Assembly (NCBI RefSeq): GCF_000003815.2
Contig: NW_023365706.1
Location: 195,395 to 259,394 of the forward strand
From: Branchiostoma floridae
Taxonomy: Eukaryota; Chordata; Leptocardii; Amphioxiformes; Branchiostomatidae
Reading direction: 5' to 3'
DNA length: 64,000 nt
Numbering within the stretch: position 1 is the first letter of the stretch; the number at the start of each line of letters is the position of its first letter. A program made the position numbers and the translations under genes. The notes under the pieces were generated by a model. It saw only the letters and a list, made by a program, of their open reading frames with translations, searched no databases and was not told the DNA's origin. Shown here one piece after another: positions 23,851 to 64,000 of the stretch.

Positions 23851-23882
23851 GACGCAAGTGTTCTAGTAATATTTCCTCCAAG

Positions 23883-42548: not shown

Positions 42549-42599
42549 AGTAGAGCCAGTCCATAACATTGGTTTCTAGTCCGTAGTACTATAAGGTAC

Positions 42600-42790: not shown

Positions 42791-43400
42791 GGGCATTGTG
42801 ATTTGAGTAAAAATGTAGTCTTTTGTTGATCACCTAAATGTTTAAAGCTCGATTGAATTGAGGCAACATTTTTATATACTCTGACTTATAAAGTGCGTTT
42901 CATTTTCCACTGTATTCATTGGGCAATATTTACATGCTCTGTGATTCTATTGTGTACAGATTATTCTTAGCTTATAAATTTATAACGACCCCTTTCTATT
43001 TCAAATGGGTGTTCACTAATTCTTGTTTTACATATGGCAGATCTTTCATCAAACTCGTTATGATTCAGGTAATTTTTCATCGAGTATATGAATCAATTGA
43101 CAAATCGACTGAATTTTTGTGTTACAGGGCTTGTTTCCAGTCAAGTTTCTATTTCTCAAGCCTTCTGTTTGCAAAGATATAGCGATAACAAGAGCAGGTT
43201 AGCTTTTGGTGGTTGTAGCTTAGATGCCAGGCCAGACCAGCTTCTCGTTCTTTACCCGGGGATCCAAAACATCACATTACTAAGGAAACTCGGAGCACTG
43301 GGGTGCATACTGTACCCTTCCTTGTCGGCGCTTTACAGTACTCGTAGAGTACTCGGTGACCGAACATAGACCCAAAACCCTACTGCCGCAACACACTCGA
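42791..43400. other. Upstream region of the transposase-like gene
   Basis: No coding exon recognised. Open frames at 42919-43369 have no known motif. Confidence 0.4.
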
Positions 43401-43405
43401 ACTGT

Positions 43406-43415
43406 TCTCGCGAGA
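43406..43415. promoter_or_regulatory. TCTCGCGAGA core promoter palindrome
   Basis: The exact palindrome TCTCGCGAGA lies 272 bp upstream of ATG 43688. In vertebrates this motif marks TATA-less, often housekeeping, promoters. Here it is a candidate promoter element for the following gene. A chance match is possible, but the position is right. Confidence 0.5.
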
Positions 43416-43687
43416 TGCATATTTTAGAGTAGAGAAGAGTCGGTTAGCTTTCAGGCGTATTTTAGCCAGTAGGTATAATTAGGTAATGAGGCTGATTTAC
43501 GCTGTTGAGACCTCATCGACAGTCATCCACAAGTTATCACCCGGATATCCCACCTTGTCTCCCCTGTCATCCGCACCCACATGGACTTAGACAACTGATG
43601 AACATGGAGTTCACCTACATCTGCGTGCTCATGCGGTACGAATAATCCTTGGCCTGGTGTCCCATTTCCGTGACCAACAGAGCCATA

Positions 43688-46600
43688 ATGCCGGGTCCTA
43701 CAAAACGACCCAAATTCTACAAACAGTATGGCACCACTGGGAAAGTCCCGCCGCGGTCGGCTAGCAGGTTTAGAAAGAAACTCAGAGACAGAGTCGCCGA
43801 GAGCCTTGCGGAGATGCGCAAAGATTATGAATATGACTCAGACGACAGCGACATCGGGGAGACACCGCCCGGTGCCTTTTACCACCTGGAAACAGAACTC
43901 ACGCGTATATCAACTGCAAGTCTAGAACACCAAGATAGTTCTGAAGAAAGTTCAGGAGAGTCAAGCTCTAGTGAGGACTCAAGCGCATACGACACATGCT
44001 CCAGTTGTGATTATTTTGAGTCAAGTTCTGAAGACTCAGAAGACTCAGATATTGAAATGGACGATTTGTGGAGGGAGGAGTCACCTGAAGATTTGACATT
44101 TGAGAGAAATCTATTGGAGTTTGGTGGGGATTTATACCCAGGATCACCAGTAACAACAGGAGAGGCCAACACTCTCATTATGATGTATGCATTGAAGCAT
44201 AATCTTTCCACAGTTGCCCTTGACGACCTGATGAAGCTATTGAATGCCATCTGTTCCAAACCCAACAATATGCTTTCATCCGCCTACAAGATCAAGCAAT
44301 TTTTTTCTGACAATTTATACCGCGATGGCAGACCAATTGTTCATCAATGCTGTTCCACCTGCCATGCTATGTTTGAACAAGGTCAAACAACATGCAACAG
44401 GAATGGATGTGACCGCAGTGCCCCTCCTACTGACTTCTACCACCTGGACATAATACCACAACTGAAGAGGTTCTTTGCAGGTAGGAATTTTTTTAAACTC
44501 CATTTTAAATGGTAGTACATATATAGATCTAAGTTCTAACACTACATTTTTGTTTTTGGTGTCTCTGCCTGTGGTAACATCATTGCATAATGAGATGCAT
44601 AACATTATAAACCTATTTATAAATATGATTGGGTTCCTGGCAATGCTTAAAGCTAAGTGCAGTCACGTAATACTTACTTTTTTTATGCACAAAATTTGCT
44701 ATAGTAAAGAAGCTCCAATGGTTTTAATGATTGCAATTGTGATCTTTAGTCCAAGAGCATTCTTATATTAAATATCTTCTGTCCTCTGCCCTAGATCCTA
44801 TGTTCAGGGACAACTTGGAGTGGAAGAACCAGCACAGAGAAGCCCATGTCATAAAGGACATCTATGATGGTCAGGAGTACAGGAAACTGACCAGACGTGG
44901 TGGCTTTTTACACAAGAGTGGAAACATCACATTTTGCCTCAACACTGATGGTGTTTCCATCTATGGCTGCAGTAGCAAGGGTTCTCTCTGGCCAGTTTAT
45001 TTGGCTGTGAATGAGCTACCTCCACATCTAAGGTATGCAAAAAAGTAGTATTTCGAGCCCGGTTAATGTTTCCTGACACTTTTGACACAAATGACATGGT
45101 TTGATCTTAAAACATTGTTGCACGTTGAGATGTAATCAATAGAACAGAATTGTCACATCAAGCATTTGATTGATTCATAGTAAACTGTGTTACTATAAGG
45201 ATGGTGTATACAGAATACAGCATACTCCTAAACATATCCTTGGCCAGTATACCATGTTAGATAAAGGGACACCTACATGACACTTACGACTGTCTTCGCT
45301 TTACTCCCTGACAGGTTCACAAAGAAGTACTTAATTCTATGTGGATTTTGGCTCAATGCATCAAAACCTAAAATGACAACATTTTTGAAGCCACTGATGG
45401 AGCAGTTAAACAGGATATATACTGAAGGTATTTAGATTTCCATATTGCCACATACAGACTGATAGTGATACACATACATTCACCCTCAAAGTCAGTTGAT
45501 TTTTCTGCATGAAAACTACAGTTTGACTTGTTATGGTGGTAAGCATACTTTTAGTATCATATGGCTTGCTACCAAATGAAGATTGCAGTTTTTTTTTTTC
45601 CAGACAGCAGCCACATCAACATTTTTATTTGAATTATTGACATGAAGTTTCAAATCTTTTAACTATCTTTTCTAAAACTGTAATGCTTATATTTGGTAAC
45701 TATGGATCTGACAGGTTTCTATGGCAGAATGGATTATAGGGCCAGTAAGGAATACATAATACCCTGCCGTTTTTATTTTATTGTACGAATCAGTCCTATA
45801 TTGTTACACCATTTTGCTTTTGTTCGTAACTGGATTGTACCAATAGGTACCTTGCTTTCAGTCATTTATTACGTACTCTTGTGTGATTCTCCATCTCTGC
45901 CACTCAAGTTATGTTTTTGCTTGATTAAGAACGAGCACATCAGTCATTTTTATAAATACTTTACTCCAGTTAACGAATCCAGCATCCTGGTGACTATAAT
46001 TTATAAGAGCTTTTTGCAATTCTCAGGATTCCAAGTAAAAGATGCAAAAGGAAAGGAATGCACCGTTCGAGGGATGTTGATGATGGCCACTGTGGACCTA
46101 CAGGCCAAAGCCATTTGTATGATGATGAAGCAGTACAATGGAGAGTAAGTATCTTTATGATATGGTATAGCTGTCATTTGGCACCAGCTTCTGTATCTTT
46201 ATAGCATGTTAGACGGTACAACACTACATCTATATGATCAAAACAACATTGGCCTTACTGGAAAAACAATGTTTCAATACCCCAATCCTAGGCTAAGGAC
46301 ACCTTTGTTCATGAAAACATTGACTATTTTTTTTCTGTGCAGATATGGCTGCCATAATTGTGAAGACCCAGGCAAAGCCTTAGGAAGGGGACATCGTGTG
46401 TGGCCATATGTGGAGGTATCTACAATGCGGACACATGAGTCGATTATAGAATGTGGATGCCGCAGCGTAGCCAAGAGGAAACCGGTGAGACATAAATGTA
46501 TATTCCAAGGCAATGCAATCTCTATCTCAGAATATGTAAATTGTATATGATAAGAATCTTTTTATAGTCTGAATCTCTCGTGTCACTGCCACCTTCAGCA

Positions 46601-49600
46601 TACATAACAAACTTTAAGATAGCAAACCTCTACAAACAATGGTTATTAGTTGACAGGCAAAAACATTCAAGTCAGGGCTGATTCATTATATGGATCAACC
46701 TCCTTGTATGGATGTATGTCTCTTGTCTGATTTATAAACTTTTGATAAATTGAACAATATGTGCTTTTTATTTGCTATTTCATTTAATTAGCTGTTTAGA
46801 TTATAATGATTTGACTTACAGGTAATGGGGGTGAAGGGTGCTAGTGCCTTTCTAATCCATGAGCCGTTCAACATGGCGACTGGGTTCCCACCAGATTACA
46901 TGCATGAACTTCTGCTGGGAGTAGTCAAGACTATACTGGACCTGTGGCTGTCTCCAAGTCATAATAGGGAAGATTTCTACATTGGAGGAATGGTAGGAAT
47001 TTATTTCTCTACGTTATGGAGGCATTGGGTAAAAGGTAGTATCATTTTCATCCAGGGTTGCCTAGCTCAGTAATAATTGCTGCTTTACAATGGGGTCCTG
47101 ACCTGGACAAAACAATGGGATTTTAAGTCAACAAATTCATTTGTCTTAAATTTTGAGAATTTTTTTCATAACATGCTTGCATGGTACGTTTGTATTCATC
47201 ACTGAATGGGTAATGTTAACAGAGTAACATGTTAACATTGCACATGCCATGGCTATTATTTACAGGGGGAAAGATTAACAACAATAGTAAACATCTATCG
47301 TGCATGTAATCTCCACACAATAGGGAAAAAATTGTTGAAACGAATTAAGTGACGAAGATAAATGCTGCATATAGACTCAGATGGTTGTGTTTTCCTCTGT
47401 ATAGCACATCATAGAAGTACTGTAAATGCATCTAATTTCGCGGTGATTTAATTTCACGTTAGTGGGAAAATGGAGTTTTTGCAGTAGCGCCATAGACTGC
47501 AGTCTAAAACTATAATGGAAAAATGTTTGCGGTGGTTTAAAGTTTGCGGTGAAGTGGCTACTGCGGAAATTGCGAACATAAAACCACCGCGGACATTTTT
47601 GCATTTACAGTAATGTTTCGTATCAGATCAGCCTTAACAGCTTCTTGTTAAACATTTCAGATATCTACCCTGAGTGAACGCATGCAAGCCCTGAAGGTGC
47701 CAGACACGATTCCACGTCGTCCAAGGAGTTTAGCAGAAAGGCACCACTGGAAAGGTAATTGCTTAAATCTACAGTTAAACCTGGACTTGGCAACTAGTCA
47801 ATGGACTGAGATATATAGTCATTGCCAGCATTTCGATTGTCTACATGTGTGTCTAATCTGTCTAGTCTGTATGTGCATTAAAGTGCATGTGGGTATGTTA
47901 CTAGTTATTACAGTAGCAGTAATTGGTCGGTTAAACATGCGCAATACCTGTTTACCACTTAAATGATGATGACACTGGAATGAGTGATTTTGTAAATTCA
48001 TAAAGGCAACATTCAATGCCAAACTGTCAATTCAATGTTCAATGTCAAATTGTCAATACTCTATGTCTATGGTATTGATCAAGGTAAGCCTCATCACTAT
48101 GAGCAACTTAAGACTCCACATGGTATTCACTGGGAATGAGTCTAAATGGGGCCTGAGGAGCAGAGTAGGTAGGACTAGAGATAATTGCTGACATGAGAAT
48201 GAGTGAACATCCAAACCAAACTGCAAGGCACATTCTCAACTGCCAAGTGGTACCAATTAATACACTAGTATATGAACAGAAAGTCATGAAATGGCTGCAG
48301 TGCTGACTCAACAAGATGTTATTACATGTATGATATGTACTGCATGATAGCTAGATGATCAAAGAGTAAACACCTGTATATGTAACCTTATTGTATTTTA
48401 TTATTCCAGCAAGTGAATTGCGCTCGTGGCTGCTGTTCTTCTCCCTACCACTCCTGCGTGACGTCCTTCCCACAGAGTACTTTGCCCACTACTGTCTTCT
48501 TGTAAAAGCTGTGTCCAAACTCCTCAGTGACAGGATCAGTCCCGCTGACTTACAGCTCGCTGACCAGCAGTTAGACATCTTTTGCAAGAGATTTGAAGAC
48601 TTGTATGGTAAGAAGCTGTGCATGCACATTATCATTAGATATGCTCAAATCAGTGACAGTTTATCACACCACTACTGTAAAAGTCAAAAGTGTACTCTCA
48701 AAGCAGCTCTGGCTGTTTTTTAAACGGCTTTCTATTGTATATTGTATCTTGTTTTGTCAAAACTTAACGTTTTAAAAAGTGAACTGGTCTGTCACTTTGA
48801 AACACCCTTACCGAGTAACCTGAGTAAGTGGTTTCCGACTGTTGGTGTCATGTTTTCTGTTACAGTATGTGACTACAATTTAGTACTGTAAATGCATTTA
48901 AACTATTTTTTAAGTTCGCAGGATGGCGATACTGTGAACATAAAACCACAGAAAAAACTCCATTTTCCTACTACCGAGAAATTGAATCTTGGAAGAATTT
49001 AAATCGTCTTAACAGTATGCCATATTCTTGGCAAGTATTATCATTACCATGAGACAGTCTTGTATGTGTAAACTCTGCTATCCGGGGCTGTATATGGCGC
49101 CTACCCGCAGGGCCTGCGATGTTGGGCGGGCCATATAGAAGTGAGGTTAAATCAGGCTAAGACTTTCATGGTATTGTTTTCCATTTTCTTGAATATCGCC
49201 TATGGGAGTCAATCCTTTTAGTCTCCCTAATGTATTTACTGTAGTTTCTAGGTCTTGTCTGTATTTGTTCCTCCCTATAGAGAATTATTATACTCTAATA
49301 GAAGCAAAAAGGATGACACATATTATTACATGATTGGAGGGGGGCATGTTTACATTGAATTCAAGGTTTGCATGCCAGAAAAATCAATAACCTTTTAAGT
49401 TTTACATTATTTCCACGTAGGAGAAAGATCACAAACAATGAATATGCACCTGTTGAGGCACTTGGCACACTACACCAGGCTCCTTGGACCCCTGTGGGCA
49501 TTCAGCTGTTTTGGATTTGAAGGCATGAATGGTCAATTGAGAAGAATGCTCCACGGAACCCGGTTTATCGTAACACAGGTGAGTCTTTCAACCAAATACC

Positions 49601-51398
49601 AGTCTGATAGAACCAACCTGAACTCAAACATGTTCAGAACCAGCTATGCAGTGACTAATCTGTCCTAGTGATCCTACCTTGTCACGCTCATTGATGCAAA
49701 TCCAAATATTGATTGAAATGCAAAAATAGACACCTGTTTCAGAATCCAAGCAATTTTGACAAGTTTGGCAAGTTATGAGAAGGAGCATAGGAATTGAATA
49801 CACATCACTACCAGTGAGCTACATTGTAGCTTGTAGTGCTCCTGTTTGGCTTAGAGGCATTAGTCCAGTACACAGATAGATGTTGGAAAAATTGAACTTA
49901 ACTACTAGCTTCAATCATAAATTATGTTACTGTATAAATTTGATAAATTTGATAATGATTGATAATCATAATCAATGTTATTAATTTTTTACAGTAACAT
50001 AATTAAGAGATTGTGCTTCACAATTTATTTCAGATCACATCCACCCTAGCCATTACTCCTGGTCTCCAGCGTCTAGGACGGGCAATGGCCATCAGGAGAG
50101 AACCAGACCAGGTGTTGAAACTGGCACAGAAGCTGACATCCAACAATCGAAGGTAAAGATGAATGACCCTGATAAAGTCATTACCGTTTTCATACTACTG
50201 CACTTATGTTTGACATACTTGCGCATTATGGTAATATGTTAAAGTCATTTGCCAGCTTAACTTTCCTTGCTGCTTAACCCTGTAAGCAATGCAAATTTGG
50301 TACAGGCTGAAGGTTAAATTAGATTCCTGTGATATTGCATGTTGATGTGTTGATTGATAGATTCAATGGCATGTAAATCAGGCAAAGGAAGAGAGTTATG
50401 AACTCGATTTGAAAAGAAAAACAACATCACATGGATGCAGGTGCTTGTGCGTGAGAATATACTGTGTCAATGCTTACCTAGCTGGTTTTGTCAGGCACTA
50501 AGAAAGTGTCACAGTAATTGTTCCTCGAGGGATATGGAAATGATAACCATGTGCAGCTGTTTATTAGTGCCAAAGCAACTATGTGCAGCTCCATCAAAAT
50601 ATCATAGATATGTAGATATCAAGTACAGCAGGAAACCACTATCAGTACTGGCCTACTTTATAAACCAAGGCATAACAGACTGATAGGAAGGTTGGTAATC
50701 TTATGAACCTTGTACGAAGCTTATCAATTTTAATTACATGTACTTTGTGTTGCATGATTATTTTTGATCATTTTGATTATTTTTGATCAGTATTGAAGGG
50801 ATTTTGTATGTAAAATGTACATATTTACTTCTGTTTCACTTCTCACAGAGCAAAGACAATCAAACTTGCGCCAGGTATCTTTGTACTGGGAAGTATAAAG
50901 CCTCGCCCTCTAAATGCCCCTGTTGAAGATGCGGTCAAGGCCTGTCTGCGGAGAATGGGGAAAGACATAGATGACGTGGAAGCTCAGGTCTTCTATCGCC
51001 TGGAGCTACAAGGTATCACCATGTATTCGTCAGATTATAACAGAGAGAACCGTAGTAATAATAGGACTGTAGAGTACAGAGATGGTGGCAGTATTTGCTT
51101 TGGAGAGATTGTGCTTTTCTGTTGTACACATGGTGAGACCTTGGCTGTTCTTAGAAGTTTTTTGGAGGTAGGGACTCAGCTTGTCAGTACAAGTGAAGGG
51201 GAGGGTCTTTTTAGCGAATGCCCACAAACGCCCACTCTAGAGAAGTCCGCGCTGCACGAATCTCATTTTTTTTGCTTGGAATATGTCCACGTTGTGCTCC
51301 CATGTATTAATCCTGAGTTTCAAGTCAATCCATCGACCCGAAGTGACATAAATCAAAGTTTTCGATTCTCGATGGTCTTTTTAGCGAACGCCCAGTAA
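43688..51398 (+). CDS. Tnp2/CACTA (EnSpm)-type transposase-like protein, 11 coding exons
   Basis: I place exons at 43688-44480, 44795-45032, 45315-45427, 46027-46144, 46343-46484, 46822-46992, 47661-47754, 48410-48607, 49421-49578, 50034-50152 and 50849-51398. Every junction has GT-AG and the phases match, giving 897 residues. The start is ATG 43688; an in-frame TTG at 43649 is not used. Residues 1-130 are basic, then Ser/Asp/Glu-rich. Residues 140-264 form the family N-terminal domain with a cysteine cluster (C221, C222, C225, C236, C241). FCLNTDGVSIYG (D316), TVDLQAKA (D405), the YGCHNC pair (C424, C427) and FPPDYMHELLLG (D493/E497) match the D-D-D/E and CxxC signatures of CACTA transposases. 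ASELRSWLLFFSLPLL, then GPLWAFSCFGFEGMNGQLRRMLHGT, and near the end VFYRLELQGI with YRDGGSICFGEI are typical of animal members. Function: DNA cleavage and joining if active; it may be a domesticated nuclear gene. Residues after about 850 run into repeat DNA, so the true C-terminus is uncertain. Confidence 0.85.
47420..47610. mobile_element. MITE, CTGTAAATGCA TIR, in intron 6
   Basis: CTGTAAATGCA at 47420 and TGCATTTACAG ending at 47610 are exact inverted repeats with TA on both sides. Subterminal parts rich in GCGGTG and CACCGC also pair. It lies wholly within intron 6 of the transposase-like gene and does not touch a splice site; the exon 7 acceptor is 50 bp downstream. Confidence 0.85.
48884..49016. 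mobile_element. Second, decayed copy of the CTGTAAATGCA MITE, in intron 8
   Basis: Starts TACTGTAAATGCATTTAAAC and shares GAACATAAAACCAC and AAAAACTCCATTTTCC with the 47420 element, in part inverted. The right end is degraded (TTAACAGTA). Confidence 0.6.
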
Positions 51399-51422
51399 AA
51401 TGTCTTTTTAGCGAATGCCCAC
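51204..51422 (+). repeat. Three copies of GTCTTTTTAGCGAAYGCCCA
   Basis: Copies start at about 51205, 51375 and 51402. The first lies in the open frame of the last exon, the second at its stop, and the third beyond it. They suggest that a repeat was inserted into the 3' end of the gene, so the reading frame after residue 850 or so is probably not original. Confidence 0.75.
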
Positions 51423-52110
51423 TATATCCACAAAAATATCGGCCGTCGCGCAACGACACCTAAACCTACCGCCACAAACATGTTCAAGATGGTGTCCCAT
51501 TGATGTGTACGGAGTTTCCGTGCTTTACAAGCATTTTAAGTCCCTGTTTTTGGTCAAAATGTACGGCGACGATACTACCATACTTTAACTATAGCAATTC
51601 AAAATGGCGGGCACTAGTCATGTGACCTCCTTGCGGGACTGTTCTATAAGTATCGCGGGAGGGACTGTTGTAGCATAGCTTCTCATACAACCATTTTAGA
51701 GTGAATTCTGAACAAGATTTTCATTTCATAATGCTATCATCTGACTGATATTTACAATGTGGTCATTTTTTCTGTGCTATTATTACCCAGGTTTGAGGAA
51801 CTTAGTGCAAATATGGATATTGATTCACCTCAGTGCCCAATTAATGTACAAAAGTCTCAGACACATTAGTGTTATAAACCTGAATAGGGGCAGGTAACCA
51901 ATACTAGAAAAACATAGCTATTTATTATTAACAATTATTACTATTTACATTATAACACCCTCCGGTTTAATTTGGGAATCCCGGTTTAATTTGGGACAAC
52001 CTCCCGTATTTCAGCAACCTTTAACCCCAAAGGCTTAATATCGCATATGTTAGGTAACAATGAGGTTAAGAATACGTAGCAGCCATTGATGACCCCCTGG
52101 GGATTAGCCC
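51423..52110. other. No gene seen downstream of the transposase-like gene
   Basis: I found no further family exon and no clear AATAAA within a plausible distance of the last exon. A pair of GGTTTAATTTGGGA phrases (51963, 51982) is a short direct repeat. Confidence 0.4.
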
Positions 52111-52291
52111 AATTCTGCAGAATTCTGCAGAATTCTGGGAACTGGAGCCAGAATTCTGCAGAATTCTGGGAGCCTGAGCCAGAATTCTGCAGAATTCTGG
52201 AAAGCCTGAGCCAGAATTCTGCAGAATTCTGGGAAGCCTGAGCCAGAATTCTGCAGAATTCTGGGAAGCTAAGCCAGAATTCTGCAGAATT
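52111..52291. repeat. ~32-bp minisatellite with GAATTCTGCAGAATTC palindrome
   Basis: Five to six units of the type AGCCAGAATTCTGCAGAATT, then CTGGGAAGCCTG. Each core is a 16-bp perfect palindrome (an EcoRI-PstI-EcoRI site arrangement). The antisense frame is open only because of the repeat. Confidence 0.93.
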
Positions 52292-52490
52292 ACGAGAACT
52301 GAAACCTGGTTCAGGTGTTCTCACAGTTCGCTGAAGTGAGGTTTATTGTTGACGTAGTGTATCTTGGGTGATGGTGGAATCTTTAGACATAGTCCATAGG
52401 GAACTCTTTTCTGATTATTGGCCAGATAGACGAGGAAATTGCTCACAGTAAAATGTCAGTAGCTATCAGGAAACTATCAGTGCTAAGAAG

Positions 52491-52550
52491 AGGATCTGCA
52501 TGGAGGGTCCGATTACGCCTTACGCTTTAGGATCGTATGCGGGCAGATGC
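52491..52550. mobile_element. End relic of the AGGGTCTGCATG element
   Basis: AGGATCTGCATGGAGGGTCC, then GATTACGCCTTACGCTTTAG, resembles the left end of the 59317 element (AGGGTCTGCATGGGGGGTCC, TGACAACGCTTTACGC). The right end is not found nearby, but an internal piece of the same family lies at 54930-55085. Confidence 0.6.
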
Positions 52551-53069
52551 GAGTGGGATCTGTTATGTATCTGAAATTTCAGAGTCATTGTCCTTACAAT
52601 TTTCAAATACAATTTAGAGTGTCACTTGAATGGTGAAGCAATTCAATGTGCAAGTAGATCTAACCATACCTCAAACAGGCGTTTTAAAGCTTCTACATGT
52701 CACTTGTAGCTTAAAATTAAATACCAGAATCCTACATGTGTATTATGTGTTTTACTATCTTTCATTTAGCCATTTCACCTTTCTATGTACAGCGTAATTT
52801 TTTAATGTTTAGAAAACAGCATGCGACTACTCTTTGGGAAAAATGGGTACGGATGGGTACGGATGAGGTACGGATCCTGGCAGATACCGTGGTATCCGTC
52901 AAATGCAGATGCAGAGGATTCCGCACAAATATGAACCAATCCCAGATTCTTAAAGGATAAGCCAAAATACCGAACAGATGCGACACTGTATCAATAAAAA
53001 ACACGCAAAGAATACGACGTCGTATATACAAAAAATGTACATAGATCCCTGGCTGTCAACGAACATGAA
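52551..53069. other. No gene seen
   Basis: No supportable exon. A GGGTACGGATG direct repeat occurs at about 52845-52865. Confidence 0.4.
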
Positions 53070-54605
53070 AATGCTCTTTTTGGGTCAGGAGAGCAAATTA
53101 ATAGTTTTCGACAAACAAGGTGCATGTCTGATGTCGAGGAACCGTTCATCATGCAATAGAGTTGGTTCTGAGAAAATCGGCCATTGTTTTACGAAACGTG
53201 TATTTTTTGTGAAAAATGCTGTTTTTGGCTCAGGAGATCAAATGACCATTTTTCGACAAACAATGTGTATGTCTGATGTCGAGGAACCGTTCTGCATGCA
53301 ATAAAGTTGGTTCCGAGAAAATCGGACATTGTTTCGCGAAACCTGTATTTTTTTGTGAAAAATGCTCTTTTTCGCTCAGGAGAGCAAATTACCATTTTTC
53401 AACAAACAAGGTGCATGTCTGATGTCGAGGAACCGTTCCGCATGCAATAAAGTTGGTTCCGAGAAAATCGGACATTGTTTCGCGAAACCTGTATTTTTTT
53501 GTGAAAAATGCTCTTTTTGGCTCAGGAGATCAAATGACCATTTTTCGACAAACAATGTGTATGTCTGATGTCGAGGAACCGTTCCGCATGCAATAAAGTT
53601 GGTTCCGAGAAAATCAGACATTGTTTTACGAAACGTGTATTTCTTGTGAAAAAGGCTCTTTTTGGCTCAGGAGATCAAATGACCATTTTTCGACAAACAA
53701 TGTGTATGTCTGATGTCGAGGAACCGTTCCGCATGCAATAAAGTTGGTTCCGAGAAAATCAGACATTCTCTTGCGAAACGTGTATTTTTTTTATGAAAAA
53801 TGCTCTTTTTGGCTCAGGAGAGCAAATTACCATTTTTCGACAAACAATGTGTACGTCTGATGTCGAGGAACCGTTCCGCATGCAATAAAGTTGGTTCCGA
53901 GAAAATCAGACATTCTCTTGCGAAACGTGTATTTTTTTAATGAAAAATGCTCTTTTGACTCAGGAGAGCAAATGACCATTTTTCGACAAACAATGTGTAC
54001 GTCTGATGTCGTGGAACCATTCCGCATGCAATAGAGTTGGTTCCGAGAAAATCGGACATTGTTTTATGAAACGTGTATTTTTTGTGAAAAATGCTGTTTT
54101 GGGCTCAGGAGATCAAATGACCATTTTTCAACAATGTGTATGTCTGATGTCGAGGAACCGTTCCGCATGCAATAAAGTTGGTTCCGAGAAAATCAGACAT
54201 TGTTTTACGAAAAGGGAATTTTTTGTGAAAAATGCTCTTTTTGGCTCAGGAGAGCAAATGACCATTTTTCGACAAACAATGTGTATGTCTTATGTCGAGG
54301 AACCGTTCCGCATGCAATGAAGTTGATTCCGAGGAAATCGGACATTGTTTTGGGAAACCTGTATTTTTTGCGAAAAAGGCTCTTTTTGGCTCAGGAGAGC
54401 AAATTAACATTTTTCAACAAACAATGCGTATGTCAGATGTTGAGGAACTGTTCCGCATGCAATGAAGTTGATTCCGAGGAAATCAAACGTCTTTTCATGA
54501 CACCTGTATTCTTTGTGAAAAATGCTCTTTTTGGCTCTGACAGGAGAGCAAATTACCATTTTTCGACAATGTGTATGCTTGAGGTTGAGGAACTGTTCCG
54601 CAAGA
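53070..54605 (+). repeat. 145-bp satellite array 2, about 11 units
   Basis: The GCTCTTTTTGGCTCAGGAGA phrase starts at 53073, 53218, 53364, 53510, 53655, 53802, 53949, 54093, 54234, 54379 and 54524, with periods of 141 to 147 bp. Units are more diverged than in array 1. The consensus is colinear with array 1 in the same orientation: TTTTTGGCTCAGGAGAGCAA against TTTTTGCCTCAGAAGAGCTA, then TTCCGCA, AAAGTTGGTTC, GAAAATCGGAC and TTTCGCGAAA. Both arrays therefore belong to one satellite family. It is not coding, although several frames stay open for up to 138 codons. Confidence 0.95.
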
Positions 54606-54929
54606 TGCATGTCTAACGTTGTTTTTTTGAGATTGGCACTGTTCCCGTTCGTGTGTATCCTGTATAGAAATGGCGAAGTAAACCATAGCCAGTATAACAC
54701 TCTCAGAATTCGTTCACTGCACATTTTACTACAAGTTTAGATTTGGTGGCTTATATCAAGCGTAGGATGAGAAATCTTTAACTTAAATCATTAACTTTCA
54801 TTTGATATTTAACTTTCATTAGACATTCGCACTCTTCATTAGGTATCAAGTGGGGCAACGAATCCATAGAAAATACGGAAAAGGATTTGCAAGGACCCAT
54901 TTGCCGTGAGGTGGGGCAACGTACATGTA

Positions 54930-55085
54930 TACACAGTCAATTTTTTTAGGGCAATGCCTTCAACATATTGAGCGCTGAATTCGAAGACCCAAAGCATTGC
55001 AAGGGAAGTCGGAGAATTTTTAATTCTAACCCTCTAAAATGGTATTTCCCACATTTTTATGGACAAATTTTCCTGCTTAAAGCTT
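54930..55085. mobile_element. Internal fragment of the AGGGTCTGCATG (hAT-like) family
   Basis: TTGAGCGCTGAATTCGAAG, GCATTGCAAGGGAAGTC and CCTCTAAAATGGTATTTCC with ATGGACAAATTTT match the internal ~160-bp repeats of the 59317 element (TCGAGCGCCGAAGG, GCGCAAGGGAGGACC, CCCTCTAAAATGATAATTCC). Confidence 0.6.
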
Positions 55086-55634
55086 AATGACTAGTGTTAA
55101 GCTGTCATTAAGCTTAAAGCTTAATGACAATTCTGTTGGCAGGAAATGTTTTTAGGACGACGCAGTTGATCTCCTTTGGATAATTGAGTCATCATTACAG
55201 TCATTCACACAGTGTTTAGTTGCCTTGTTATGTACAATTTCTTACAAACTTGTACTACTTGATCAATAGTGATGAAACACTGCATTGCCATTGCTTTTTC
55301 AAGGCACCTCTATACTGTACTTAATACCAGTAGCCTCTAGTTTATCTAAGTAAGTAGGTGTGACAGATTGATTGTTAGGGAGTTTCCCATGTGACATCAC
55401 TAAAGCCACTTGCTACAGTACACATGCATCATGTCAGCCGTGACAGAATGTCTACTAGTAGTAGTATGTTCCCAGACCTTGGCATGAAATTGCAATTCAA
55501 GTGTGTAATCACAGGCCTGGGATGCCCTGTCTGCTTAGTCTCTCCTTGTTCAGAAGATTGTGTGCACTTTTGTACCTCACAAAGCAATGAAACAACCCTA
55601 ATAGGCTAGCTGTCTGGGAAAGCACACATACCTT
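55086..55634. other. No gene seen
   Basis: A short inverted/direct cluster of CTTAAAGCTTAATGAC (55077-55130) is the only structure noted. Confidence 0.4.
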
Positions 55635-55798
55635 GGGCTCCAAGCAGATCCTATAGTAGCATAAGATAGCATCTAAAGCTGGCTGTGTGAGGAGTTTTGC
55701 TACCGGCGCAAATGGACACCTTTTGGATGACTACACTCCTTGGCCAGTTTGGTACTATCTTTTGCCATTGTAGTGTCTGCTTCGAGATTAGATGAGTA
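55635..55798. mobile_element. MITE, CTCCAAGCAGATCC family
   Basis: Left CTCCAAGCAGATCCTATAG, then TAGCATAAGATAG; right ACTATCTTTTGCCATTGTAG, then TGTCTGCTTCGAGAT. The arms are inverted. Same family as 27105 and 56637. Confidence 0.7.
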
Positions 55799-55950
55799 TA
55801 ACATCTGTTGGTTGAAGGTCCCTTTCATGATCCTTCTTGTTTCCCCTATAGGAGCTCCCCTATAGTTTCTGATGCCTGGGGCCACTTGCAGCCATGTACA
55901 TGACTGTATACATTGCATTGTGTAATGTCACCAGTGAACACACTGTGTGC

Positions 55951-56010
55951 TAGCCTGGTATCCAGCTGTAATAAAGCTCCCAGGCTATATTACGGCTGGA
56001 TACCAGGCTA
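55951..56010. repeat. 16-bp-arm hairpin
   Basis: TAGCCTGGTATCCAGC (55951-55966) and GCTGGATACCAGGCTA (55995-56010) are exact reverse complements. The inner AATA/TATT also pairs. It may be a small foldback element; GGTATCCAGGCTA also occurs beside the 27704 hairpin. Confidence 0.85.
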
Positions 56011-56201
56011 TCAGTGTGCACCCTTCTGGGAGAGAAAGAAATTATCGAATGCCTATCTGGACCTCTGCTAAGATGATCAGTAACCACATCCTTGGATGTG
56101 CATAGAACTCTTAACTTGCAAACCAGCTAAAACGTAAATCTCTTTTTTACCACTGCAATTTCATTTCTAGACTTGGGCTAAGAACAAACTTTATCAATGG
56201 T

Positions 56202-56203
<2 letters not shown>

Positions 56204-56270
<67 letters not shown>
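56204..56270. repeat. (TA)n microsatellite
   Basis: About 67 bp of uninterrupted TA dinucleotides. Confidence 0.98.
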
Positions 56271-56273
<3 letters not shown>

Positions 56274-56334
56274 GAAAGTGGAAATATAACTCTGTCTGGG
56301 GCCTTGATAGCATCCTGCCAGTAAGACAAGTACC

Positions 56335-56336
<2 letters not shown>

Positions 56337-56378
<42 letters not shown>
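56337..56378. repeat. (TG)n microsatellite
   Basis: About 42 bp of uninterrupted TG dinucleotides, 66 bp after the TA run. Confidence 0.98.
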
Positions 56379-56383
<5 letters not shown>

Positions 56384-56636
56384 ATGGGCTTGCCAGGAAA
56401 AGAAATTTGTTTCTTTATTGAATATCTATCTTCTATAACAGAATCTGTACAGCAAGAAGGTCGAGCATAAATCATTGCAAAGCCAAACTGACCAAGGAGG
56501 TTATAATTGCATCCTCGTTCTTTCATACTAGTATGTCATACTGACATTATACCATCTTGATAATCACATAGCCTTTCTGACACCGTGGGTTGTTATCCAC
56601 TGTGTCCGGGACAGAGCCCAATCCTCTCCTCCCACT

Positions 56637-57021
56637 AATCTCCAAGCAGATCCCACAATGGCATAAAATAGTACCATACTGGCCAAGGAGTATAGTAAGC
56701 CAAGAGGTGTCCATTTGCCATGTAGAATCTGCCCCCAGTCGGCTAGAACAAAGGCTATTAACATCCAATTGTTTCCCAATCAAACTGTACTTGCAGTGTA
56801 GGTGCTAATTGTCCTCCTTCCTGTTTGGTGTTAACTTCCAACTGGGACATGTGTTAGTCACTGGCAACAGGGAGGGGCAGCAACACCATTGTTGAATAGA
56901 AATGCTCCTCCCTGTTTCAGTGGAGGCAGATCCCCGGTAGCCGAACACACTCCTAGGCCGGCTTCACTCTCTGCCAGCTTTTGATACTATCTTATGCTAC
57001 CGTAGGATCTGCTTGGAGATT
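56637..57021. mobile_element. MITE pair, CTCCAAGCAGATCC family
   Basis: The left end is AATCTCCAAGCAGATCCCAC, then GGCATAAAATAGTA. The right end is GATACTATCTTATGCTACCG, then TAGGATCTGCTTGGAGATT, nearly the exact inverse. The 385-bp length against 145-165 bp for the others suggests two nested copies or a longer variant. Confidence 0.7.
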
Positions 57022-59308
57022 ATCCTCCCACCACCTATTACCTCCCCAACCCCCATTTGTACAATTGGATGGAGTATTCATTAAGGGAAGCCCTGTAAAC
57101 AGCTCAAATTGTCAAGGGATTTGAACCCAGGACCTCTATTTTCTAGGTCAATATACTCATAAACTTTGATAAAGCAATGTAGGAGTCCAGACAAAATTTG
57201 TCAGTAGGTAGCTTACTCTGTATAAGCAAGGCATGATTGTCCCACAGGGGCATATATGAACAAACAGAATACTAACACAAGTAATTGCTTAGCTTACATA
57301 TTTCAAACCAGTCATTATCATGTACTGGTAATGCCATATTATCTGAATAACAAGAAAATCTTACCGGTATAAAATCTACTTGGGGAGTATACTCCTTAAG
57401 TAAAACTTATGTTTTGTAACAAAGATAAAGGAAAAGTTTCCTCTGGTAACTTTTATTCTAATTTTTTTTTTTCAAATTCTGTTTTCTTTAGCCAGGGTAG
57501 CCCAACTCAGTGTAACCACACTGCTTTACAGTGGGGCCCTGGATACTTTCAATACTTTCTTTCAACTTGTCCTAGGTGAATGGCAGGGTGGGGTGGGTGA
57601 AAGGATTTCCACTGAAAAACAGTGAGAGGCTGGAACATCTGACTCTGTCAGTCATTTCGAAGTCTGTACACAATATGTGCTGGCAGCCCACAAAACCACT
57701 GGGGGAAACCAGGGGGAAACTTCCAATCCTTGTCTGTTCCAAGGGTCAAGGGGTCAGGTAGTATCCTTCCATACAGGGAACATCCCTGTAGAGTCCTATA
57801 GATCTGATACAGTTTGTGCAATGTATATGATCCCCTTTTTTAAATGTTGACTCTTTGGAAACATTATCATGTCATTACAAAATTTCAAAGTGTAGAAATG
57901 TACATTTTGTATAGTTCATCCCATGTGAACAGGACTTGGATTGTTTATTTAGGGAGAACAGATGCCACATGGCTGAACTGTGGTTGACACTGTCTGTCCT
58001 CCTCTTGTAGGTGTGTGTTACACTCCAAGCCCTTTGTCACTCTCCAAGCAGATGTAAGGATCTAACTTAGACTAAGTGTTTTACACATGTCATTGCCTTT
58101 TAAGCCTCCTTCACATGGTGAATTTTTTTAAATGTGTGAAACTTTACTTAAGGGTGTTGCAAAGACGATGTCCAAAACACTGAGACTGAGTGGGATCCTC
58201 ACATCTACTTGAAGATGATAATCCATGTGCAGACTATTACTGTGAGGTTGCCCAGGCTAGTTGCAAGAGACGTCCTTTTCCACACCATTTTCTCCCAACT
58301 CATGTCAGTCAATTGCCCTCAACAGGATGCAGAAAGATTCAGGAGTACAGTCCCAACTGTCATATAGCCACAAACTAATTTAGTTTCTATGCTATGCCGT
58401 TTATCTTTGACACATAGGAGTTTGCAAGTCTGTTGCAATATTACAGTCAACTTGCACTGGGGGAGTGAAAACTGACCTGAAACATATGGGATATTGCTGT
58501 GTTGGATTAGTCCATCATTTTATAAGGAAGACTTGTGTGTCTAAATTTTGTACCTGAAATAGGAAATATTTCCCCGCACTATATACATAAAACAGGGGTC
58601 CCGTGTTTGAGGAGGTGCCTCGAGCATGTAAAACATCCACATTGCTCAAACAAATTTGGGTACCTACTGGCTGCTAGTAGTAGTAATACACCAGAGTATT
58701 ATTATCATACCTCAGTCTACTACATGTATAGGCACATCGTAGTTCAGTTCAGTTGTAGTAAAGAATAGTAAACCAATTGAGTTTTTTTTTAAATTTATAA
58801 ACAGTGTAAGAATGTGACCACTTTGCATGCTCTAGAACAATGTAATTTGAGCATTTCTTCTCAGGAATGCATTTTTTAAGTTGAAATTTCATGGTGGCTG
58901 GCCAAGGCTTCCTGGGTCATTCACCTGACCCCAGCATCCCAATGGATAAACCAGGACTCAACCCTCTGTTTTCTTGGAGGAGTGGTGGTGGGAGGAACAT
59001 CTGTTGTGAAAGCTGGGGCATCACAGACTAGACAGCATAAACATATTTGATATTATTCCTTCAAAAAGAGGATAACTTCCGTTAGGTTATCTGTTCGACC
59101 AAGAGATACTTGAAACTGAGTTCAGATTCAAGCAACCTGACAGATCTACATTGTACCAAATACTAAACAGCCAAACAACCAGACAGATCTGCGTCTTATT
59201 ATCATATTATACCGTTATGCACCAATATTATAAAATCTAAAGCACTGTGTTCTGTGACTCAAATTTTACCAAGACCTTTTCTCACACAAGTGCTGAGCCC
59301 ACCTAAAG
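57022..59308. other. No gene seen
   Basis: About 2.3 kb without a supportable exon. Isolated CTCCAAGCAGAT at 58034 may be a further MITE end. TTTAAGCCTCCTTCACATGG at about 58100 resembles the end of the 62762 element. Confidence 0.4.
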
Positions 59309-59316
59309 AATCTAAG

Positions 59317-60353
59317 AGGGTCTGCATGGGGGGTCCTGACAACGCTTTACGCTAAATTCAGGACGGTCAACAACGTTTTACGTTAAATTCCGAAGGCCGG
59401 CAACGTTTTACGCTAAATTCAGAAAGGCCGGCAAGGTTTACGCTAAATTCTGGAACACTCGACAGGGGCGGGGGCATGCTCCGCTGGGAAGATTTTGAAA
59501 TTTTGACTCTCTGAAACACTATTTCCTGCATTTTGAGGGGAAATTTTTGCTGGTAGACAAAGCCAAAGTAAATGGCATATCTAATCAAAGATTCCTAGGG
59601 GCTCAGTGTAAGCCACCCAACAGATTTTGACCATGTCGAGCGCCGTAGGGGCGAGGCGTCGCAAGAGAAGTCCGGGAAAATGACCCCCTGAAACACGATT
59701 TCCTCCTTTTTTCTGGCTATTATATAAAGCTAAGTTAAATGAAATTTCTATCAGCAAAAAAGGGTGTTTGCGGTTGACACGTCACATCTCGCAACATCAT
59801 TTTCAGAATTTCGAGCGCCGAAGGCGTGAGGCGGCGCAAGGGAGGACCATGAAAATTTTGAAATCTTGACCCTCTAAAATGATAATTCCTGCATTTTGAT
59901 GGGCAAATTTTGTTCGCAGACTAAGCTAACTTCAATGACATTCTATTAGCAAAAAGGTTTTCGAGGGCGAGGCCACCCAAACAATTTTTACCATGTCAAT
60001 TGACCGAAGGTGAAAAGAGTCGCAAGGAAGGTCCGGCAAAATTTTGAAATCTTGATCCTTCAGTTTGAAACGCAATTTCCTTTGTTTTGAGGGGCTAAAA
60101 TTTACTGGTAGACTACGCTTCGACTTACGAAATTTGGGAGGCCAGACTACGATTTACGGGTAATTTTTAGGCTTGATTACGTTTTACGTAAAAATTTTTG
60201 ACTAGATTACGCTTTACGTGAAATGCACTGGCTACGCTTTACGGTAAAGTTTCCATCCTCACTACGAATTACGTGAAATAAAAAAGCTTCCCTACGAATT
60301 ACGGGAAATTAAAAGGCCTGCCTACGCCTTACGCAAAAGAGCATGCAGACCCT
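59317..60353. mobile_element. hAT-like non-autonomous transposon with 8-bp target duplication
   Basis: TIR AGGGTCTGCATG (59317-59328) and CATGCAGACCCT (60342-60353) are exact. The flanks are AATCTAAG to the left (59309-59316) and CATCTAAG to the right (60354-60361), an 8-bp duplication with one mismatch, as in hAT-type insertions. Both subterminal regions contain many ACGCTTTACG / TTTACGTAAA words. The centre has three to four degenerate ~170-bp repeats (GAGCGCCG.AGG, GTCGCAAG, CCCTCTGAAA, TTTCCTGCATTTTGAGGGG). No transposase is encoded. Confidence 0.85.
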
Positions 60354-60509
60354 CATCTAAGGTAGTAAAAATATAGAAACTCATCTATATCAGAAGGAAG
60401 TGGCCCAGGTTATTCACCTGTAGCTGCATGTCAAACCTGTCTTCTGTTGTCACCTTGGGACAACAAAAACCTGCCGGACAGTTTGAGGGTTCCATAAGGT
60501 TATGTTTCC
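60354..60509. other. No gene seen
   Basis: Short spacer with nothing recognised. Confidence 0.4.
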
Positions 60510-60640
60510 AGGTATACCTGTCCTTTATTTAATAGGGCCAATGCATATGGGCACATGTTCAGGACATGACACAGTGTCTGCTGTCCTTGGCAGTGAGCGC
60601 ACTTGGATTTCCCCCATCGAATTTCTTTGGTCATGTGTTG
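60510..60640 (-). mobile_element. LINE C-terminal zinc-knuckle relic
   Basis: The minus strand reads WGKSKCAHCQGQQTLCHVLN, then MCPYALALL. This is the C-x2-C ... QTL.HVLN.CP.AL signature at the end of a group of LINE proteins. It is only about 40 codons and isolated. Confidence 0.65.
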
Positions 60641-61377
60641 GGAGCCTTCCGCGAATTCAAAAACACTTTAACTTTAGGTAGATGTTGACAAGTTTAGCAA
60701 GTTTCCCTATACTTGGAGTCAGATCTACCGTACATTTTTCTAGTTTCATGTCCTCTTCCTTTCGCAGGCGGAATCTTACCTTTTGGCACACTTTTTCTTT
60801 TAAATTTGTATACTGGGTATTTGCTTGCCTCATTGCCCATGACTATGGTCAAGGCTGTATACCTGTGGTTTTGTGCCTTAGCATTGCTTGAAGACTCTGC
60901 ATGGCTACTGGGCATTCTTAACTCTGTAGGTAAATCTGTTCCATCGAGGTGAGGCCTAGGCAATTACCATTACTTAGCACTTAGTTCATCCTATGCCTTG
61001 GCAACTGGCTATGGTATAATATTCCAGGGTTAGCTGACTCTCACATTGCCCAATTTGTCTGGTACTAGGTGATGCTGTAGTTTAAATCAGTGAGGTATGT
61101 ACATAAAATGTGAAGTACTATCAAGATGTATAAAATCATTAAAAAAATGTATATTGAAAAGCACATTTATATTCACCAAGGATTGAGGACGCTTCTATGT
61201 TTATGATTATGTAACAGTGAGGTTCAGGTGCCACCAACTGACTTAAACGGGTCCGGTCTTTTTTGCCTAGCAGGAGACTGCACTACTTGGCTATTGCCGT
61301 TTCAATTATTCCATATTTTTTCTCTTCCCAACCAAAAAGCTTTGATAATCAAAAAGCTACATGTGGGCGAATGAATC
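60641..61377. other. No gene seen
   Basis: Overlapping short frames near 60682-60963 on both strands are unremarkable. Confidence 0.4.
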
Positions 61378-61530
61378 TGTAACTATTGTATTTCAAAACC
61401 AGTGGAAGATGAAAATATAATACATCTTATTTCTAACTGCCTTTCTAACGACCAGGAAAAAAGAGCTATTGAAGAGGCCTGCAAAACCCACAAAAATTTC
61501 CAAACGTTTACTGCCGAAACAAACCTATAA
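61378..61530 (+). mobile_element. LINE C-terminal zinc-knuckle relic
   Basis: Reads CNYCISKPVEDENIIHLISN, then CLSNDQEKRAIEEACK, and ends at TAA 61528. The C-x2-C-x10-H-x4-C knuckle with VEDE.IHL..NC is the same type as those at about 33756 and 36950, but it is a different copy. Confidence 0.65.
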
Positions 61531-61894
61531 CCCTGTTAATGTGTCATACACACTGTAACCCACTCATTATAGAAAATGTGGAACACTTTGTCTTCCAGGG
61601 GACACTTCGTCTTCCAATGCTCTCAGAAAGGAAGTCAAACCCAAAGTGACACAGCTGGTAGGCACATCATGTAGGGTAGCCTGACTCCCTAGGTCTCCTG
61701 GGAGGAGTTCCAAGTGAGCTTGTGTTATGCTAAGGTCACACCTACTTGGTCACACATTTCCAAACCAGGCCCAGTTGGGATGTTTGGGAAATGAAAGTGT
61801 TTATCAAGAAATAAACACAAGTACTGATGACTATTTTGGACACTCTTTAAAAATAATGTGTTGTCTTTTATAGTATATTATTAACATACATTCG
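61531..61894. other. No gene seen
   Basis: Nothing recognised between the LINE tail and the foldback. Confidence 0.4.
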
Positions 61895-62095
61895 CATAAT
61901 TCCACCAGGTGCCATTATACCGCCACCTCAAAAAGCGTTGTTATAGAGGCCATCTCAAGATTGTCTTCAACACCTAAATATCTGAATTGTATTACATTTG
62001 AGATATTTAACATTCGGTGTTCAAGACAATCTTGGGAAGACCTCTATGCTAACGTTTTTTAAAGTGGCGGTATTATGGCACCTCGTGGAATTATG
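61895..62095. mobile_element. Foldback element with ~80-bp arms
   Basis: CATAATTCCACCAGGTGCCA, TTATACCGCCACCTCAAAAA, TAGAGGCCATCTCAAGATTG and TCTTCAACACC on the left pair with the inverted right arm (GGTGTTCAAGACAATCTTGG, GAAGACCTCTATG, GTGGCGGTATTATGGCACCT, CGTGGAATTATG). The loop is about 40 bp. Transcription would give a long hairpin RNA. Superfamily unknown. Confidence 0.85.
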
Positions 62096-62761
62096 ATAGT
62101 TGTCATCATGTTATATATTTTCATTCCCAAAAACTGTCTGACCCGCCCAATTTGGTAATGTGACTGTACCAAACACAAGGGCAGGGATCTGGAGATTGTT
62201 AGCCAGGCATCATAGTTAGCCTGCTTTGTCAAATTTGCTGGGAACACATGTGTGACTAATGAAGATTTTCTAGGAGTATGCATGGGGCCCAGGTTCCCTG
62301 TATAGGCCATCCCAAGAAGATTCTAACTATGAAGCCTCCAGGGGCCTGAGGTCTATCATGTGGGTGGGATTCAGTAGCTGTCTTAAGTGTATGTTTACCA
62401 AGGATTAGTCACGGTGTGCCAAGGGAACCTACCACAGAGACAATTCCCTGGTAGCCCAAGCAACTAGTACTGGGTAGGTAGATCATATTGGAATTAATTG
62501 TTACTTCAAGACATGCAAAGTGACATGCAAAGCTCAGAAATATCAAAATCACTTGCCACAGGCTCTCTAGATCTGGCATACACAATGTTTCATATTTTAT
62601 GAAGTCAGAGAACCATTATTATTATAATAGGTAAACTAGATAAACCAGACTATTTACCTACTCTTACTACCAAAGCAATTATAGTTATCTCCAAACCTTA
62701 AAGTACATGTAGACCTTCACAAAGACTAAATCTGAACTTCTGAATGCATAAGCATCAGTTT
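62096..62761. other. No gene seen
   Basis: Nothing recognised. Confidence 0.4.
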
Positions 62762-63244
62762 AAGCCCCCCTCACACGAGAGCACGAATGAGCCGGAATAC
62801 TGTCGTAATGAAAATTCTTTTTTTATTCGTAGCAATTCCTGGCAATTTGTAGTGTGTTCCAAAATTTCTAACTGCTTTCCAGCTATTTGTGCCCGTTCTT
62901 TTGGCTAGACAGAAAGTTTTTGACATGTTAAGAACTGTTGAGGTGCATTCGAAGTGGAGAAATATCGAATGGCATTCATAGTGGATTCTAAGTGTATTTT
63001 TACTGGTCTAACTGCAGTTTGACTGCATTCTACTGCATTCCAACATTATTCGAAATATCTTATTTCATTCGATGGAGAACTGAAACGATACTGAGCCATC
63101 TCAAATCCTGCCAGAATGTGGCCGAAAGAATATCTGGAATGCTCATTGAGAATGTCTAGAATACACTACGAATTCACAGGAATAGAAAAGAATTTTCATT
63201 CTGACGGCATTCTGGCTCATCCTTCTCATGTGAAGGGGATATAA
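62762..63244. mobile_element. MITE with ~60-bp TIRs (AAGCCCCCCTCACACGAGA)
   Basis: The left arm AAGCCCCCCTCACACGAGA, GCACGAATGAGCCGGAATAC, TGTCGTAATGAAAATTCTTT is inverted at the right end (AAAAGAATTTTCATTCTGAC, GGCATTCTGGCTCATCCTTC, TCATGTGAAGGGGATAT). The interior of about 360 bp is non-coding and has repeated ATTCGA/TGCATTC words. The C-run plus TCACA tip resembles the ATACCCCC..TCACA family, but the arms differ. Confidence 0.8.
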
Positions 63245-64000
63245 GGTTCATTTGGAATTCCCTACCGAATGGCCCTGAATGTGGCACAAATTTTGTAAAT
63301 ACTTCATTCCGGCTGGTTTTGCTTGATTCCTGCTGATTTGGTTTCAGTGTGAAGGCCCTACAAGCATCAGTCAAACCTGACAAATAAAAACAACCACAAG
63401 TTCCCCATCACAACCACTTACCCTAGACACCTACTTTTCCCCTTCAAGTGCTTATATCACCATTCACCAACAACACTAAAATACTACAGATTAAAAGCAA
63501 CCATCATGTATTTTATGATGGTTGCTTATAAGTATTATTCAATGAACATAGCACACAAAACATTATCCCTTCTGATTTCCCAATGGTGATAGTGATCATT
63601 GAATTTTTCAGAAAATCAAGTTAATTTCTGCCCGTGGCATCATAATAACACGGTTTAAGCCCCCCTTGCAATAAATTCAATGCAGTAATTATTGAATTGT
63701 TATGGGTAACTAAATTCTAGACCTACCAAACCTAGGTTAGCCGGCACGCCATGACCTGTATCGAACAGTTTTTGAACAGGTTTTCTATGCAGTTCGAATC
63801 GATCACTCTGCGGTCCTTAGCAATGCATTGCTAAGGAAACGTTTGTCACACGTCAGGTGGATGAAGTTTCATCCGAGTTAATTACAGCTGCTTTAGACCT
63901 GAATTGTCGGCCTTTCTACCAAGATTGTGTTATATGTGTCATATATAGAGGAATGTCATGTAATTTTGATATGATCCATTTTTGTGGGTTTTTACAACTA
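63245..64000. other. No gene seen; one short hairpin
   Basis: AAGCAACCATCATGTATTTT followed by ATGATGGTTGCTT (63497-63527) is a small hairpin. AAGCCCCCCTT at 63658 may be an isolated end of the preceding MITE family. Confidence 0.45.

Follow-up and report, generated by a model that had tools for sequence, protein, structure and literature searches.

Transposases of the Tnp2 type (Pfam Transposase_21, PF02992) belong to the EnSpm/CACTA elements, and up to eleven exons are given for the CACTA transposases of maize in the consulted part of the source (PMC4158355). In animals, spliced transcripts are described for the CACTA element SmTRC1 in the part of PMC1636069 consulted. Here, a predicted Tnp2-type gene with eleven exons across 43688-51398 on the forward strand of a 64,000-nucleotide stretch of the lancelet Branchiostoma floridae was analyzed. 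This whole stretch, hereafter the window, is C148:195395-259394 (NW_023365706.1), where C148 is the scaffold carrying the gene and C-numbers denote contigs of the same genome (513,431,437 bases, 431 contigs); positions without a C-number count from the first base of the window. The gene very probably belongs to an old lineage of intron-rich, low-copy Tnp2 transposases of the aspartate-aspartate-glutamate (DDE) kind, and its exon 11 was recently interrupted by a foldback element in which a second element, X, is apparently nested.

With the EnSpm/CACTA transposases the window gene shares the two D residues, the CxxC pair, DxMH, and a conserved E, the same set as in the intronless Tnp2 frames of this genome, and its many exons have a counterpart in the maize members (PMC4158355, consulted part). 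In contrast to such elements, neither CACT(A/G) ends nor a 2-3-bp target duplication was found at the gene, with 758 bases of its true 3' flank included, and no near-identical second copy was found. The Tnp2-type transposase with a CXXC motif is common to SmTRC1, other animal TRC elements, and the window gene, whereas SmTRC1 consists of one 1,683-bp frame between inverted repeats of ~54 bp and the window gene of eleven exons with no inverted ends found (PMC1636069, consulted part). A literature search on CACTA, EnSpm, and tnp2 in amphioxus, Branchiostoma, and metazoa returned no title or abstract on this gene family in lancelets among the matches listed, and none of the words CACTA, EnSpm, MuDR, or CMC occurs in the main text of PMC5802833, which deals with amphioxus transposable elements.

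Interruption of the last exon

The original prediction described a complete gene and argued that ten correct splice junctions would not survive in a broken element. Both statements fail at the end of the gene, which keeps all ten junctions and is nevertheless broken by a 20.8-kb insertion in exon 11. As annotated, this exon spans 50849..51398, and the assembled frame from 43688 to 51398 stays open for 897 codons. However, a fragment on C165, of which a 248-bp piece matches 50951-51198 at 90.3%, continues as coding sequence past the point where the window enters a repeat, as do the other relatives of the gene. Between 51199 and the stop at 51398, the window is the terminal repeat of a transposon read in frame, so that native coding sequence ends at 51198 and the last 66 of the 897 annotated residues, together with the stop, come from the inserted repeat. 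A splice donor at 51167 had been considered as the end of exon 11 and was ruled out, as the exon continues both in the relatives and in the piece behind the insertion.

In a DNA search with 50000-53000, for which the best 40 of 606 candidates were scored, the repeat at ~51199-51955 turned up with 98-100% identity in at least 38 other places; the list was crowded by the repeat, and the C165 piece at 90% was not among its entries. Six inverted pairs, measuring 3.7-4.4 kb end to end, were found among the listed places. On the same scaffold, the inverted partner of the window copy lies at C148:266677-267428 and is identical in 752 of 752 bases, which indicates that the break is recent. A 9-bp target duplication, CAAGTGAAG, flanks the insertion on the left at 51190..51198 (forward strand) and on the right at C148:267434-267442. 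Behind the right copy the frame reads SEVADIEVENALVNDHSMNNVIEVTPTETLKAVPISCLYRKCVYVTVKKKDEDETLSYVCHFPNLVEPD followed by a stop, with SE inside the duplication, and the codon phase does not change across the insertion. This end matches the C-termini of the relatives on C3, C7 (place C7a), and C19, which read FPNVVEKD, FPNVVEPD, and FPNTSEHD, respectively.

The insert therefore extends from 51199 to C148:267433, a length of 20,841 bp, and the true end of the gene lies beyond the window, ~21,000 bases downstream, where the remainder of exon 11 starts at C148:267434 behind a native part of 50849..51198. With 831 native codons up to 51198 and 67 behind the duplication, the uninterrupted gene would comprise 898 residues. 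The locus is an annotation trap in which a frame running open into the end of a transposon mimics a complete gene, with the true end 20.8 kb away.

Gene structure and family membership

The remaining claims on the structure, namely eleven exons with matching junctions, no internal stop, and 897 residues, were all reproduced: the ten introns are GT...AG throughout and a single stop stands at the end. As a prediction from the sequence, this is the structure of the gene. Exon 1 (43688..44480) starts with the ATG at 43688, and exon 2 (44795..45032) holds D316 in the motif NTDG. Exon 3 (45315..45427) is followed by exon 4 (46027..46144), which holds D405, and, after intron 4 (46145..46342), by exon 5 (46343..46484) with CHNC at 424-427. 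D493-x-x-H496 is located in exon 6 (46822..46992), ahead of exons 7 (47661..47754) and 8 (48410..48607). Exon 9 (49421..49578) contains TMNMH (N630) and FGFE (E656), the candidate third catalytic acid, and exon 10 (50034..50152) precedes the interrupted last exon. All of these lie on the forward strand.

The first spliced model had 912 residues, as its exon 2 started at 44750 from an acceptor 45 bases earlier, and its numbering is 15 higher (D331, D420, C439/C442, D508/H511, E512, and E671 correspond to D316, D405, 424/427, D493/H496, E497, and E656). The acceptor giving 44795 is preferred because an AG stands at the corresponding position in the relatives C19, C7b (a second place on C7), and C7a; in all three the AG directly precedes the stretch matching DPMF of the window gene.

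Membership in the Tnp2 family (EnSpm/CACTA type), as originally proposed, is well founded. Transposase_21 matched residues 302-446 at 3.1e-17, with 62.9 bits over a cut-off of 28.6, when the first spliced model, truncated at 51167 (836 residues), was used as the query, while DUF4218 matched the same model weakly (0.14). Since this match is accompanied by intron places common to the relatives, the structure is taken for a gene rather than a chance arrangement.

Conservation of the catalytic residues was read from an alignment of 16 rows, the window gene included. D316 (NTDG, motif from 314) was a D in 12 of the 13 rows with a residue there, the exception being row L026, which has an L beside its frame edge, and D405 (VDLQ, motif from 404) in 14 of 15, the exception L036 being poorly aligned at that place. 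Both cysteines of CHNC were kept in 15 of 15 rows, D493 and H496 (DYMHE, 493-497) in 16 of 16, and E656 (FGFE) in 16 of 16. The motifs claimed for the protein are thus present and conserved as regards D316, D405, CxxC, and D493, with the exception of E497, which had been named as a catalytic residue. It is an E solely in the window gene (1 of 16 rows), and the remaining 15 rows have A, C, or N. Because of these frequencies, E656 is more likely than E497 to be the third catalytic acid, as far as conservation in the alignment can tell.

The inserted foldback element and element X

The terminal repeat at 51199..51955 (forward strand), which carries the false stop at 51398, was compared with a relative of the inserted element on C13 (L056). 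This relative is an element of ~4.2 kb with the same two ends, GGGAGGGTC... and CGCATGGTC..., inverted repeats of ~1.3 kb at 96% identity, and a repetitive interior whose longest listed frame has 194 codons. It is flanked by a 9-bp duplication of its own, CCTACGTGC (local positions 4 and 4203). A target duplication of 9 bp is therefore found in two of the two insertions examined, and both have long terminal inverted repeats. Duplications of nine bases and long inverted repeats characterize elements of the MuDR/Mutator-like element (MULE) kind. The insert resembles MuDR/MULE foldback elements in both features, and we take it to be MuDR/MULE-like and probably non-autonomous. It differs from them in that no MULE transposase was seen, although none was sought, and the 4.2-kb relative holds only small frames.

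The sequence of the MULE-like element breaks off at 51955 in the window. From 51955 onwards, the window matches C13 from C13:14280684 downwards at 100% over 1047 bp. On C13 this match starts at the same base and lies beside unrelated DNA, and for this reason 51955 is most likely the end of a second mobile element, X, which starts with ACACCCTCCGGTTTAATTTGGG. Element X occupies 51955..64000, with no strand assigned, and continues beyond the window, its right end being placed within C148:259395-266500. The comparison covered 51954-53000 and 57000-64000, and the latter stretch was colinear with C13, C340, C8, and C5 at 97-100% in several pieces. Judged from these matches, X is apparently nested in the MULE-like element. 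It is large and young, and the longest open frame in the part seen has 146 codons. A 145-bp tandem array at 53068..54602 (no strand assigned) lies between the two compared stretches of X and is probably part of it.

Relatives and copy number in the genome

A protein search of the genome gave at least 57 matches; 54 of the 140 first candidates were scored, so that this count and those that follow from it are lower bounds. Eleven were the exons of the window gene itself and one was the C165 fragment (83%). At least 33 further exon-sized matches at 33-64% identity fell on C7a and C7b, C19, C1, C3, about six places on C6, and one on C11, and at least 12 long matches in mostly open single frames showed 26-32% identity. 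In the same search, which covered all exons, no near-identical second copy was found, the best of the scored matches outside C148 being the C165 fragment and the others reaching at most 64%. DNA searches for copies covered 40200-47700 and 50000-53000. Elsewhere in the genome, the former (best 40 of 7241 candidates) matched nothing but 5'-flank repeats and one 67-bp piece of an intron, and the latter gave no other copy of exons 10-11 among the matches listed, a list crowded by the inserted repeat. The suggestion of a recent element consequently finds no support, as neither the protein search nor the DNA searches of 43688-47700 and 50000-51198 gave a near-identical second copy.

Over matched segments, the relatives C7a, C19, C1, C3, and C7b were 29-75% identical to the window gene. 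Intron places were judged from where the protein matches begin and end, and splice contexts were inspected for C7a and C19. Intron 4 is missing from C1, C3, C7a, C7b, and C19, where exons 4 and 5 form one match. The other nine places were all seen in C19, in C7a if exon 10 is counted (weak match, E 0.078), and in C1 and C7b combined, and an extra intron at residue 675 (912-residue numbering) was found in C1, C3, and C7b. Segment by segment, C7a and C19 are stop-free. The genes on C1, C3, and C7b are mutually 98.9-99.7% identical over shared parts, and each adjoins a 178-bp satellite.

A tree of 16 rows separated the intron-rich genes (the window gene, C19, C7a, C7b, and C1) from 11 intronless Tnp2 frames with 100/100 on both sides of the root branch; the root was placed at the midpoint and long branches were flagged by the program. 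Within the intronless group, L020, L021, and L022 are 99% identical over 4.27 kb and L018, L026, and L029 97-99%, and owing to this identity they are regarded as young copies. A profile search with PF02992 gave 28 matches in this genome, with all 35 candidates scored, and 0 in 14 control genomes. The window gene was not among the 28, as single exons probably fall below the cut-off, and the count therefore misses intron-split genes. Two kinds of Tnp2 gene thus occur in one genome, namely young, intronless, near-identical copies versus an old, intron-rich, deeply diverged clade, and the latter is where a co-opted gene would be sought.

Regarding the surroundings of the relatives, the 178-bp satellite bears telomere-like CTAACCCTAACCCTAGC/TAGGGTTAGGG motifs and runs on C1 from 10175917, on C7 from 19399093, and on C3 at ~28268900-28276606. 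It adjoins the near-identical Tnp2 copies on three chromosomes, far from contig ends. Frames of 2,204 and 2,588 residues at the C1 and C7b relatives were dismissed as assembly gaps (runs of N) and not genes. A mobile unit exceeding 38 kb and common to C1 and C7b was also rejected, as its limits were not reached, the stretch is satellite-rich, and C3 shares only ~10 kb around the gene.

Element ends

No convincing CACT...AGTG pair was present among 1716 combinations (33 x 52) in 28-64 kb, a range of which the right side is mostly insertion. With the 758 bases of true 3' flank, the search for CACT(A/G) inverted ends gave 0 hits for the window gene. Hits were obtained for C7a (4 versus 0-4 in five shuffles) and C19 (3 versus 0-1) and were not accepted, because all of them were 13/16 matches, a value reached by shuffles too, and none had a target duplication. 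The inverted repeats 41655-41683/42445-42473 were likewise set aside as element ends, since they belong to an 819-bp repeat and not to an element of the gene.

Origin and fate of the gene

In the reading that we consider very probable, the gene before the insertion would have encoded ~898 residues with a core of D316, D405, the CxxC pair, D493-x-x-H496, and probably E656, and the uninterrupted protein, as far as conservation of these residues indicates, would be able to cut DNA. A foldback element with long inverted repeats then landed recently in exon 11, producing the 9-bp target duplication, and the second large element X apparently landed inside the foldback element, probably in this order. 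A transcript ending at 51398 would give a protein without the last 67 residues and with 66 foreign ones, which would presumably entail loss or impairment of function. Animals may be heterozygous for the insertion. A knocked-out haplotype would be unremarkable, as presence/absence variation of genes is widespread in lancelets (PMC12373286, consulted part).

Several points weigh against this reading. The splicing is purely a prediction, and the assembly holds no uninterrupted allele, though one may exist in animals. Stops occur inside some C7a and C19 matches of the wider protein search; these are taken for places where matches enter introns. Between the two compared stretches of X, C13 has ~7.9 kb versus 4.0 kb in the window (53000-57000), and the inside of the 20.8 kb is partly deduced, since C148:259395-266500 was unread, which leaves some room for an assembly join through the high-copy repeat. 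Nevertheless, a wholly or partly false join as the source of the insert is improbable. The abundance of the repeat, found at 98-100% identity in no fewer than 38 other places, the 97-100% identity of the compared X stretches to C13, C340, C8, and C5, and the small size of the scaffold (451,745 bp) would fit such a join, but the same 9-bp duplication stands at both ends, the C-terminus resumes directly behind it in the same codon phase, and at two unrelated sites X has its left end at the identical base. The insertion, its duplication, and the C-terminus beyond it are taken as established.

Host use of the gene had been suggested by the original prediction, in the form of a domesticated transposase. 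According to this explanation, the intron-rich clade would be a small family of host genes that have become fixed and employ an intact DDE nuclease, with this member knocked out on at least one haplotype. We regard it as unlikely, though as the most probable of the alternatives. Besides the lack of a near-identical second copy in the searches above, the members are deeply diverged with common intron places and, in C7a and C19, stop-free matched segments; the catalytic residues are kept, and the examined flanks of the window gene, C7a, and C19 showed no pair of inverted ends with a target duplication. Against the C165 fragment, the nonsynonymous distance (dN) was 0.060 and the synonymous distance (dS) 0.175 by LWL85 or 0.253 by NG86 (0.06 versus 0.18-0.25), in a single pair of 81 codons in which the C165 stop was left out. 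However, this short pair, one partner of which contains a stop, comprises 10 synonymous and 10 non-synonymous codon differences, and the transposases of mobile elements are under selection, too. The insertion in the last exon has been tolerated and the coding sequence is not intact, being open to 51198 and again beyond the insert. Other relatives are fragmentary or lie beside satellite in duplicated stretches. Introns are likewise common in CACTA transposases, and a high intron number does not point to domestication, given that maize members reach eleven exons (PMC4158355, consulted part). The broader proposal that the clade is an unrecognized lancelet host gene family whose DDE nuclease core is intact, a multi-gene co-option of CACTA transposases with presence/absence variation via insertions like this one, is somewhat more doubtful still. 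At the other extreme, a young, active CACTA element is highly improbable at this locus. It would agree with a Tnp2 transposase with a conserved core and with the young intronless copies, L020/L021/L022 and L018/L026/L029, in the same genome, but is largely refuted by the lack of a near-identical second copy and is opposed by the searches for CACT...AGTG ends in 28-64 kb and for CACT(A/G) ends with the 758 bases of true 3' flank. An old, low-copy lineage with a recently interrupted member thus remains the preferred explanation.

Flanks and other features of the window

A promoter-type palindrome had been reported upstream of the gene, which probably refers to the perfect 34-bp palindrome CAAGGACGTTATATCAGCTGATATAACGTCCTTG at 42515-42548. 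The palindrome is present, but it is a dispersed motif and does not speak for host use of this gene. With up to 3 mismatches it occurs in 32 places of the genome, this one included, 4 of them exact, versus 0 for a reversed control. In the outer 15 positions of each arm, 17 symmetric double changes versus 12 one-sided changes were counted over the 32 sites, and symmetry seems to be kept. A site for a dimeric binding protein and a tiny foldback repeat are candidate readings. Among the loci examined, allowing up to 8 mismatches, it was found only in L009, which is the window's own locus, and a literature search on three 14-base forms of it found no paper. Next to it, an 819-bp repeat at 41655-42473 has 29-bp inverted ends (93%) and is matched in part on C6, C3, and C4, with 76-82% identity in the longer matches. 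This repeat is a MITE-like (miniature inverted-repeat transposable element) insertion in the 5' flank of the gene.

The gene is flanked by 145-bp tandem arrays at 38222-40102 and 53068-54602, which are ~70% alike. An array 3' of the C3 relative (local 18757-20599) is 87% like the right-hand array and ~71-72% like the left-hand one. The arrays were rejected as parts of a giant Tnp2 element, as the right-hand array lies beyond the insertion point, and they are no constant part of such genes, none being present in the examined stretches of C1, C7b, C7a, C19, and C165.

When the window was scanned against Rfam, nothing reached the gathering scores. Two similar frames on the forward strand, 3755-4633 and 23853-24377, contain a hydrophobic signal-like stretch and, behind it, SGSFPA(G/R)AQDTRTDQAGSVLREYVDKGYCTYTYVVPPG and a coiled-coil-like part; they had no Pfam match over the cut-off and are apparently duplicated genes of secreted proteins. 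On the reverse strand, a frame of 998 residues at 12662-15655 with endonuclease and reverse transcriptase domains represents an apparently intact retrotransposon of the long interspersed nuclear element (LINE) type, and a second, partial LINE-type frame is located at 10845-11957.

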